DNA of 64,000 bases from Synechococcus sp. PCC 7502 (lineage in GTDB: Bacteria > Cyanobacteriota > Cyanobacteriia > Pseudanabaenales > Pseudanabaenaceae): positions 2,944,394 through 3,008,393 of the forward strand of contig NC_019702.1 of the NCBI RefSeq assembly GCF_000317085.1. Reading direction: 5' to 3'. Below the pieces are notes generated by a model. It searched no databases and had not been told where the DNA came from. It saw nothing but the letters and a program-made list of their open reading frames with translations. The translations under genes were made by a program, and so were the position numbers. Positions 30,235 to 44,554 of the stretch are shown piece by piece. Position 1 is the first letter of the stretch, and each line of letters starts with the position of its first letter.

Positions 30235-30624
30235 GGGGCCGCAACGGTTTCGACGTGTTAGTAGAAACTACCTCATGCAGGTCGAGAGTGAGCCATCTCT
30301 CGTAAATCAAGGACTCAAACAAGTACATGCGAACAACATCGTACCCTTCGCTCGTAAAGCCGCTCCTGTAGCTGCCTAAGAACCACCCCTCAAAAGGTCT
30401 GTTTCGAGCTCTAACTTGTGACTCAGTTAAACAAATTTAGATAACCCCCAACTGATGCTGTTAACGCCCTTCTCTGATAGAGTGTTAACCTAAGAAACTT
30501 TCAGAGCATCCTAGTATCTGGGAAAATAGATATTTCCCTCCGTGCGGATTAAAACGGATAAACCTGTGACTGAATGGGGCGTTATGAGCTAGGACGGACG
30601 AGGATTCGACTTCCTCCGGCTCCA
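30235..30624 (+). ncRNA. ssrA: transfer-messenger RNA (tmRNA)
   Basis: Starts GGGGCCGCAACGGTTTCGAC and ends in the T-arm-like GAGGATTCGACTTCCTCC, then GGCTCCA and a T-run. The acceptor GGGGCCG pairs with CGGCTCC, giving a one-piece tmRNA of about 390 nt; CCA is not encoded. The resume codon GCG begins a tag reading ANNIVPFARKAAPVAA then TAA, the cyanobacterial tag. It rescues stalled ribosomes and marks products for Clp proteases; clpX and clpP are at 17.5-19.5 kb. Confidence 0.97.
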
Positions 30625-30670
30625 CTTTTTTATAACTAAATCAAATAAGTTAGATTAACCAAGAGTAACA

Positions 30671-41611: not shown

Positions 41612-41785
41612 TTATGAGGTTTCTGCATTAATTTAAGTTAGTTCTATCATTCTACAGTTAGAAAACCCTAGATTTAGAGTAGGAAATAGTGGATAAGATC
41701 GGCGTAATTACAATGTATAGGGCGGGACTAAAAGTTTGGGGCAAACCCTCTATAATGGATGGGGCAAATAAAATGTTTCGGAACC

Positions 41786-43717
41786 ATGACTAATACGATT
41801 AAGTACTCTAAAGTTGAAGTACTCAAGGAAAAGAGTAACTATCTCAGATTTCCCATAAGCTCTGAGTTAACTGATGGCAATAGCTTTTTTAGTCAAGATG
41901 GTATCCAAATTCTCAAATTTCATGGTTCCTATCAGCAAAAAGACCGAGATTTAGAAAAAGCTAAGGCTAAGGGTGAAGAATCAAATTATTCGATGATGTT
42001 GCGGACTCGAAGCCCAGGTGGATTTATTCCTTGGCAGTTATATTTGGCATTGGATCAGTTAAGCGATCGCTATGGGAATCATACTTTACGGGCAACGACA
42101 AGGCAGGGGTTTCAAATTCACGGCATTCTTAAACAAGACCTGAAAACCGTAATTGCTGACATTACCCAAAATATGGGTTCGACCGTTGGTGCCTGCGGAG
42201 ATATTAACCGTAACGTTATGGCTCCTGTGGCTCCCTATAAAAATCGACCTGAATATCAAATTGCCCGTGACTATGCAGTAAAAATTGCCGATCTTTTAGC
42301 ACCCCAAGCTGGCTCCTATTATGACCTATGGCTAGATGGTGAAGTGGCAGTTAGTTCCTTACCCATAGAAGCAGCGGAGGTTACTAAAGCCCGATCACAG
42401 CACGGTAAAGGCAAGATTGATACTAATACTACCGATAGTTCCGAGCCGATCTATGGGACTCAGTTTATGCCACGCAAATTTAAGATAGCGATCGCTGTAC
42501 CCGGAGATAATTCCGTAGATTTGTTTACAAATGATTTATCCTTAGTGGTCATTACCGATGGCAATCAAAAGCTCGAGGGGTTTAACGTATATGTGGGTGG
42601 GGGACTAGGACGTAGTCACAATAATGATGCCACCATTGTCCGCCTTGCCGATAGTATTGGCTTTGTCCCCGTTAGTGATATTTACGAATTAGTTAAAGCA
42701 GTAGTGGCAGTGCAAAGAGATCATGGCGATCGCTACAACCGCCGTCATGCCAGATTTAAATATCTATTACATGAATGGGGTGTAGAAAAGTTTAAGCAAG
42801 TATTACTAGATTATTATCCTACCCCTTTACAAGCTCCTAAACCCTTACCTGAATGGAAATATGAAGACTATTTAGGATGGAACGAACAGGGTGATGGCAA
42901 ATATTTTCTGGGCATATCCATTGAAAACGGCAGAGTGATAGATAAAGAGAGCCTACAGCTAAAAACTGCCCTTAGGGAAATTACCGAAGCCTTTCATTTA
43001 CCTATCTATCTCACCCCTAACCACAACCTCTTATTTACAGAAATTCCTGCGATCGCCAAGACTGACATCCAAGGGATTTTGGATCGCTGTGGCGTATTAT
43101 CACCGGATCAAATCGATCCCCTGACTCGTTATTCTATGGCTTGTCCCGCTTTCCCCACCTGTGGCTTAGCGATCACTGAATCAGAAAGAGCTTTACCCAG
43201 CATCATCGAACGCCTAAGGGTTTTACTAGATCGCATGGGCTTAGGAGATGAAAAATTGATTACCAGAATGACAGGATGTCCCAATGGTTGCGCCCGTCCT
43301 TATATGGCTGAATTGGGCTTTGTGGGCAGTGCTTGGAATGAGTATCAAGTGTGGTTAGGTGGAAATTTTAACTCAACCCGTTTGGCACAGCCATTTATTC
43401 AACGACTCCATGTGGATAAGTTAGAGGAATTTTTTGAGCCTTTATTTGCCTACTTTAAGAGAGATCGCCTTGATCAAAATGAAGGATTTGGGGATTTTTG
43501 CGATCGCATAGGTTTCGATCAGCTCAGAGAATTTAGTACCAATTATGTTAGACAAGATATTAGTCCAGCGACGGCAAAAGCTAAGGATCAAAGACATCGC
43601 ATTACCCTATCTACCTCAGTCTATGAGCAACTAAAATCAGTTTCTAGCAGCCATAATAAATCTATGAAGGAATTAGTAGAAGCGGCGATCGCTAATTACT
43701 TATCTAGTCTTAATTAA
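41786..43717 (+). CDS. sir: ferredoxin-sulfite reductase with ribbon-helix-helix-like tail
   Basis: 643 aa from ATG 41786 (an ATG nine codons upstream is possible). It reduces sulfite to sulfide with ferredoxin electrons. It shows HTLRATTRQGFQIHG, the GACGDINRNVMAP loop, first cysteines YSMACPAFPTCGLA, and the sirohaem/4Fe-4S pair in RMTGCPNGCARPYMAELG. The last 41 residues (about 603-643: RHRITLSTSVYEQLKSVSS and KSMKELVEAAIANYL) look like a CopG-type ribbon-helix-helix, a DNA-binding and dimerising fold. Plastid sulfite reductases of plants bind nucleoid DNA, so the tail is intriguing. Confidence 0.93.
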   Translation: MTNTIKYSKVEVLKEKSNYLRFPISSELTDGNSFFSQDGIQILKFHGSYQQKDRDLEKAKAKGEESNYSMMLRTRSPGGFIPWQLYLALDQLSDRYGNHTLRATTRQGFQIHGILKQDLKTVIADITQNMGSTVGACGDINRNVMAPVAPYKNRPEYQIARDYAVKIADLLAPQAGSYYDLWLDGEVAVSSLPIEAAEVTKARSQHGKGKIDTNTTDSSEPIYGTQFMPRKFKIAIAVPGDNSVDLFTNDLSLVVITDGNQKLEGFNVYVGGGLGRSHNNDATIVRLADSIGFVPVSDIYELVKAVVAVQRDHGDRYNRRHARFKYLLHEWGVEKFKQVLLDYYPTPLQAPKPLPEWKYEDYLGWNEQGDGKYFLGISIENGRVIDKESLQLKTALREITEAFHLPIYLTPNHNLLFTEIPAIAKTDIQGILDRCGVLSPDQIDPLTRYSMACPAFPTCGLAITESERALPSIIERLRVLLDRMGLGDEKLITRMTGCPNGCARPYMAELGFVGSAWNEYQVWLGGNFNSTRLAQPFIQRLHVDKLEEFFEPLFAYFKRDRLDQNEGFGDFCDRIGFDQLREFSTNYVRQDISPATAKAKDQRHRITLSTSVYEQLKSVSSSHNKSMKELVEAAIANYLSSLN

Positions 43718-43765: not shown

Positions 43766-44554
43766 ATGGAATGGCAACAGGTTGAAAATAATTTTGTCTT
43801 AGCACCGTCTCAACCCAAAGGAGTGATCCATTTTTTAGGTGGAGCTTTTTTTGCTGCCGCCCCCCACATCAGCTATAGTCGTATTTTAGAAACCCTAGCT
43901 AGGGCAGGTTATGTAATTGTGGCGACCCCGATTATTAATAGCACCTTCGATCATCGCCAAATTGCCATTGATGCCTATAAATCCTTTAAGCGTACTCGCA
44001 GCAAGCTATTTTTAGACTATTTCCCGCTATTTGGTATGGGGCATAGCATGGGTTGTAAAATTCATCTTTTGATTAATAGTTTTTATCCATCGGAACGGGC
44101 AGGAAATATTTTCATTGCCTACAATAACTATGGTGCCAAGCAATCTATTCCATTATTTAAAGAGTTCGCAGGCACGATTCCCGAAATGGAAAATATGGAA
44201 TTTACGCCCTCGCCTTTGGAAACTATGGAGTTAATTAATCAAAGTTATACCGTTGAGAATAATTTGTTAATTAAGTTTGTCGATGATGATATTGATGAAA
44301 TTGCGGTTTTAGCATCCCAACTTCAACGCAAATTTAATAATAATCTCCATCAAAAAGTTACGGTTAAAACCCTGCCCGGAACTCACCTAACCTCTATGGG
44401 TATGGACTTAAAATGGCAAGCGGGTCAAAGCTTTACGCCAGTGGATGCTGTATTTCAATGGATTAAGCAAGGTATGCACAAGGATAATTCCACCCTAGAG
44501 CAAACTATTCTAAGTTGGTTAAAGTCACACCCCGCCTATGCTAAAACGGCTTAA
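43766..44554 (+). CDS. DUF1350 family protein (alpha/beta-hydrolase-like)
   Basis: 262 aa. The start VIHFLGGAFFAAAPHISYSR is typical of DUF1350, found in cyanobacteria and plants. GMGHSMGCKIHLLI resembles a nucleophile elbow with Ser, FVDDDIDEIAVL could hold an acid, and LPGTHLTSMGMDLKW the histidine, so an esterase-like triad is possible. No enzyme activity is established that I know of. It is 48 bp downstream of sir in the same direction and may share its transcript. Confidence 0.85.
   Translation: MEWQQVENNFVLAPSQPKGVIHFLGGAFFAAAPHISYSRILETLARAGYVIVATPIINSTFDHRQIAIDAYKSFKRTRSKLFLDYFPLFGMGHSMGCKIHLLINSFYPSERAGNIFIAYNNYGAKQSIPLFKEFAGTIPEMENMEFTPSPLETMELINQSYTVENNLLIKFVDDDIDEIAVLASQLQRKFNNNLHQKVTVKTLPGTHLTSMGMDLKWQAGQSFTPVDAVFQWIKQGMHKDNSTLEQTILSWLKSHPAYAKTA

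Follow-up and report, generated by a model that had tools for sequence, protein, structure and literature searches.

A ribbon-helix-helix domain at the C-terminus of ferredoxin-dependent sulfite reductase in cyanobacteria

The sulfite reductase gene (sir) of Synechococcus sp. PCC 7502 runs on beyond its catalytic part into a short C-terminal extension, which raises the question of whether an assimilatory enzyme carries a DNA-binding module of the kind found in repressors, and what such a module would do there. To our knowledge, few metabolic enzymes possess a dedicated repressor-type DNA-binding domain, and PutA is the textbook case. We investigated the extension in the stretch of 64,000 nucleotides that holds the gene (the window) and in other cyanobacteria.

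The host genome (3.58 Mb in 3 contigs) is nearly complete, and its closest named relatives among the genomes compared are Pseudanabaena. The open reading frame of sir, listed with its features in Table 1, was confirmed as real. Its product (Sir) scored 889 bits against the TIGR02042 sir model over residues 3-587, above the curated cut-off of 731.5, and maize SiR (5h8v) matched it with an E-value of 1e-191 over residues 4-587. The cysteines that hold the 4Fe-4S cluster and siroheme (C453, C459, C498 and C502) were invariant in the alignments. An alternative ATG occurs at 41759, nine codons upstream of that at 41786; because it lies only 2 bp past the conserved −10 TATAAT, we prefer the ATG at 41786 as the start. 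Downstream of sir, after a gap of 48 bp, lies a gene for a DUF1350 protein (43766-44554, + strand, 3.6e-92), which is possibly co-transcribed. The window also contains a tmRNA gene (30235-30627, + strand; Rfam RF00023, 107 bits).

Table 1. Coordinates of sir and its parts in the window, with the evidence for each.
Feature	Position	Strand	Evidence
Probable sir promoter: −10 TATAAT (41751-41756) and downstream TGGGGCAA (41760-41767)	41751-41767	+	Conserved in family, upstream alignments
sir, ferredoxin-dependent assimilatory sulfite reductase with C-terminal RHH domain	41786-43717	+	ORF, TIGR02042, maize SiR match; 643 aa plus stop
Catalytic body, residues 1-587 (two NIR_SIR_ferr and NIR_SIR repeats)	41786-43546	+	Pfam PF01077, PF03460; TIGR02042
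Linker, residues 588-602	43547-43591	+	pLDDT <50 at residues 593-603; length and sequence vary among relatives
RHH domain, residues 603-643 (41 residues)	43592-43714	+	Profile against PDB, Pfam on orthologues, AlphaFold, Foldseek
Ribbon strand RHRITLS, residues 603-609	43592-43612	+	Register from HMMER alignments and conservation table; strand by alignment
Helix A, residues 610-623	43613-43654	+	DSSP on full-length model
Helix B, residues 627-642	43664-43711	+	DSSP on full-length model

The original prediction had described the last 41 residues as resembling ribbon-helix-helix (RHH) proteins of the CopG/Arc type, and the profile of orthologous tails, structure prediction and fold search all bore this out. 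Taken by itself, the tail of the window protein matched RHH models weakly (E=0.15 for Pfam RHH_1 and E=0.09 for RHH_5 with a 46-aa piece, below the Pfam cut-off, and E=0.39 against CopG), which would suit a chance resemblance in a short helical tail with no RHH fold. A profile built from 37 tails, when searched against all PDB sequences, matched RHH proteins nearly exclusively, with AvtR at the top (3.4e-5) and ORF56, ParG, a CopG-family protein, omega, CopG, MazE antitoxins and PutA among the further matches. Individually, 14 of the 37 orthologous tails matched Pfam RHH_1, the best at 3.1e-7. In most relatives the sir product ends in the pattern R-x-R-[VI]-x-[LV]-...-Y-x-x-L-K-x-x-A-x-x-x-G-x-[SP]-M-...-A-[IL]-x-x-Y-L. 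A separate small protein of the host genome, about 120 aa long (L173, G000:C3:3501331-3501417), also gave a weak RHH match.

AlphaFold predicted two helices for the tail alone, with pLDDT of about 95, and placed the same two helices in full-length Sir (pLDDT about 90) behind a disordered linker. RHH folds are obligate dimers, complete only when two strands form one antiparallel ribbon; the strand was left unassigned in the monomer model because it pairs only with that of a partner subunit. Hence, of the RHH fold and dimer interface that the original prediction had looked to a structure model to give, the monomer fold was predicted, and the interface lies outside what models of single chains report. 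Foldseek searches of the PDB returned at the top the DNA-binding domain of PutA and chains of CopG, most of which come from CopG-DNA complexes, followed by other RHH proteins. The top matches superposed with an rmsd of 1.1 A over 41 columns, a TM-score of 0.82 by target and a probability of 0.98-0.99; their E-values of 0.15-0.2 are weak, as is usual over 60 residues, because the domain is short. Since profile, predicted structure and fold search agree with one another, and with the conservation and selection described below, chance resemblance is highly improbable, and the Sir tail is a genuine RHH domain.

How far this fusion extends was determined in a sample of 386 cyanobacterial genomes. 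At a threshold of 1e-5 the tail profile matched 121 genomes, and in 118 of these the matching ORF had the length of sir; among the matches listed, all but five lay in such ORFs, and those five were short ORFs with weak scores. A search for the tail in other cyanobacterial Sir proteins, proposed as a check of the window gene, thus recovered it across the phylum. In the genomes of relatives a sir-like match was found in 97 of 97, and most of these continue into the tail pattern. Among 80 named loci the tail was present in Pseudanabaena, Nostoc, Calothrix parasitica, Planktothrix, Trichodesmium, Crocosphaera, Xenococcus, Leptolyngbya and others, and missing from the Synechococcus group (CS-1329, lacustris), Chamaesiphon, Hyella, Adonisia and three Calothrix. 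The deepest lineages, which we take to be Gloeobacter, Thermostichus and Gloeomargarita, and the picocyanobacteria of the Synechococcus/Prochlorococcus group have Sir without it. Such tail-less proteins are the orthologous enzyme, of about 557-595 aa, and end where the linker of the window Sir would begin. One metagenome-assembled genome labelled Tatlockia, a gammaproteobacterium (L130), contains a typical cyanobacterial tailed sir, probably on a mis-binned contig. The survey covered cyanobacteria, with solved Sir structures as the comparison outside them. These results show that the RHH fusion on Sir spans the cyanobacterial phylum, far beyond the window gene, and has persisted for most of cyanobacterial history.

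A tree of the catalytic part only, rooted on three tail-less sequences that are presumably from Gloeobacter, has tail-less sequences on its deepest branches and needs eight changes of tail state overall, most plausibly a single gain followed by about seven losses. Losses within otherwise tailed groups occurred in Calothrix (L143, L145, L159) and in L070 and L071, and no remnant of the tail was found in the available sequence, up to 4 kb, downstream of these five sir genes. Inspection of the same distance in tail-less genomes for split or relocated tail genes yielded only two tails, in L075 and L170, both in apparently broken or frameshifted gene predictions. Several lineages lost the tail and retained sir, so the enzyme can do without it. 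The linker, in turn, ranges from about 2 to 257 aa among relatives, with the domain conserved throughout. In Trichodesmium, Okeania and a Microcoleaceae relative (L132, L138, L142, L158) low-complexity, repeat-rich linkers of 190-260 aa are followed by a nearly identical RHH domain, which therefore behaves like an independent, tethered module.

We then asked which parts of the domain are conserved. In the family of the window gene, dN/dS was about 0.05-0.08 in the RHH region, against 0.04-0.05 in the enzyme and about 0.09-0.11 in the linker, so purifying selection acts on the domain almost as strongly as on the enzyme. Ungapped HMMER alignments place R603, R605 and T607 on R4, T6 and T8 of CopG, which are the DNA-facing ribbon positions in CopG-DNA structures, and on T5, G7 and K9 of PutA, so that Sir presents polar or basic residues where RHH proteins face DNA. 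Lys9 of PutA has itself been the subject of work on DNA recognition, as indicated by a title cited in PMC5293562. Among 70 tails remaining after reduction to 80% identity, position 605 was arginine in all 70 (100%), position 603 was arginine in 84%, and position 607 was serine, glycine or threonine in 89%, whereas buried strand positions interchanged valine, isoleucine and leucine. The exposed face of the strand was thus the most conserved part of the tail, above the buried face, and the mean charge was +2.8 for the strand segment and −1.1 for the helices. Greater conservation of an exposed face than of the core points to a ligand, most simply DNA.

The same pattern bears on whether the tail could be a module for dimerisation or partner docking only, which would join two Sir molecules or dock Sir elsewhere after DNA binding had been lost. 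Some RHH domains are mainly dimerisation or partner-binding modules, and since plant SiR is monomeric, acquiring an obligate dimer-former would be a real change; the long flexible linkers of some lineages would also suit tethering. A pure dimeriser, however, needs a conserved buried core, yet here the exposed basic face leads, with R605 ahead of all other positions named above. We regard loss of DNA binding as a serious but rather unlikely explanation.

The comparison with PutA favors a DNA-binding role. Like Sir, this trifunctional protein is a metabolic redox enzyme with an RHH DNA-binding domain, and few folds resemble the Sir tail more closely than its domain does. In PutA, unlike in Sir, the domain is N-terminal and the enzyme is unrelated; PutA is moreover a demonstrated autogenous repressor with membrane switching, whereas the comparison for Sir is one of sequence and predicted fold. 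The tail likewise shares fold, register and the alternation of buried and DNA-facing strand positions with the CopG/Arc/omega repressors (Pfam RHH_1), which differ in being small stand-alone proteins rather than parts fused to a 587-residue enzyme. The PutA domain mediates both dimerisation and DNA binding, and when fused to a monomeric PutA that lacks an RHH domain it renders that protein dimeric and DNA-binding (PMC5293562). By analogy with this graft, Sir would be expected to form dimers via its tails and to bind DNA.

We propose that the RHH domains of two Sir molecules would pair, as expected of a fold completed only in the dimer, with their two strands forming one antiparallel ribbon. 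The ribbon would enter the major groove of DNA with R603, R605 and T607 directed toward the bases, while helix B would be anchored at its start on a phosphate. One DNA-bound dimer would then carry two catalytic bodies, as in trifunctional PutA. We consider it probable, on moderate rather than high confidence, that the window protein is a working ferredoxin-dependent sulfite reductase whose RHH domain, on a flexible C-terminal linker, would make it a dimerising, DNA-binding enzyme comparable to PutA and with a regulatory role.

If Sir resembled PutA fully, it would regulate itself autogenously, with the tail bound at the sir promoter, and the sequences upstream of sir offered a candidate operator. 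The element TTCCGAYNGGATTAYCGGGG is strongly conserved. In Pseudanabaena it stands directly before the −10 of sir, and many other cyanobacteria likewise have it upstream of this gene (L004-L029, L091-L126 and others). At two or fewer mismatches it is a single site in most genomes with a match, and lies upstream of sir wherever the coordinates of sir were compared; at three mismatches, extra matches were about as frequent as in the reversed control. When phylogeny is ignored, tail and element are associated (Fisher p=2.5e-4), which together with the position and singularity of the site would fit autoregulation. Among about 4 phylogenetically independent pairs, however, the two were not associated (0.8 the same way, 0.9 the other way). 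The element is retained in tail-less L077-L079, L070/L071 and the three Calothrix that lost the tail, is weak in the likewise tail-less L083/L085/L090, and is missing from 29 of 98 tailed sir genes, among them that of the window, whose own sir promoter does not contain it. Because the putative operator does not follow the tail on the tree and is absent from the window promoter, we rejected PutA-type autoregulation through TTCCGAYNGGATTAYCGGGG, and regard autogenous control by the tail as unlikely. The element probably serves a regulator other than the Sir tail; its presence at tail-less sir genes makes it a likely site for a separate regulator of sulfite reductase.

The original prediction had also implied kinship with the DNA compaction of plastid sulfite reductase, and this did not hold. 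The plant plastid ferredoxin:sulfite reductase (DCP68) is the same enzyme as Sir and has a reported association with DNA: it compacts plastid DNA (PMC4154389), and its C-terminal region is reported, in work cited in PMC6249382, to be important for nucleoid localisation. Both observations would favor a tail that makes Sir a bulk, DNA-compacting nucleoid protein. Maize SiR, however, aligns only to query residue 587 and ends where the cyanobacterial linker begins, leaving no room for an RHH domain, and the deepest cyanobacteria are tail-less. We therefore reject homology with plant SiR DNA binding: DCP68 must bind through other surfaces or a different C-terminal peptide, and the plant and cyanobacterial links to DNA, if both are real, are not homologous. 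In Synechocystis, Sir is reported at 3150-4300 copies per cell (PMC9958174), which, leaving aside the tail status of that Sir, seems too few for coating or compacting DNA. This number favors a regulatory or local role over compaction, and a bulk nucleoid function appears quite improbable. The most likely use of the tail is regulatory or local, in which Sir would act as a trigger enzyme or as a modestly abundant nucleoid-associated enzyme.

Our search of the literature, made without the Kobayashi 2016 study of the plant C-terminus, found nothing linking sulfite reductase, RHH domains and cyanobacteria, and no report of DNA action by a cyanobacterial sulfite reductase having been tested. On the sequence evidence, the link between sulfur assimilation and DNA that was suggested for this gene is plausible. 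More tentatively, it is possible that Sir is a sensor-regulator of early cyanobacterial origin, in which a siroheme/4Fe-4S enzyme fed by photosynthetic ferredoxin would, through an RHH tail on specific DNA, couple gene expression to the supply of sulfite or to redox state in the manner of PutA.

A repressor-type domain is thus carried by a central assimilatory enzyme, under strong selection, across a large part of an ancient phylum. If the tail binds DNA, it would link sulfur assimilation, the redox state of ferredoxin and the chromosome in relatives of plastids, and DNA binding by sulfite reductase would have two separate origins of different kinds, one in cyanobacteria and one in land-plant plastids.
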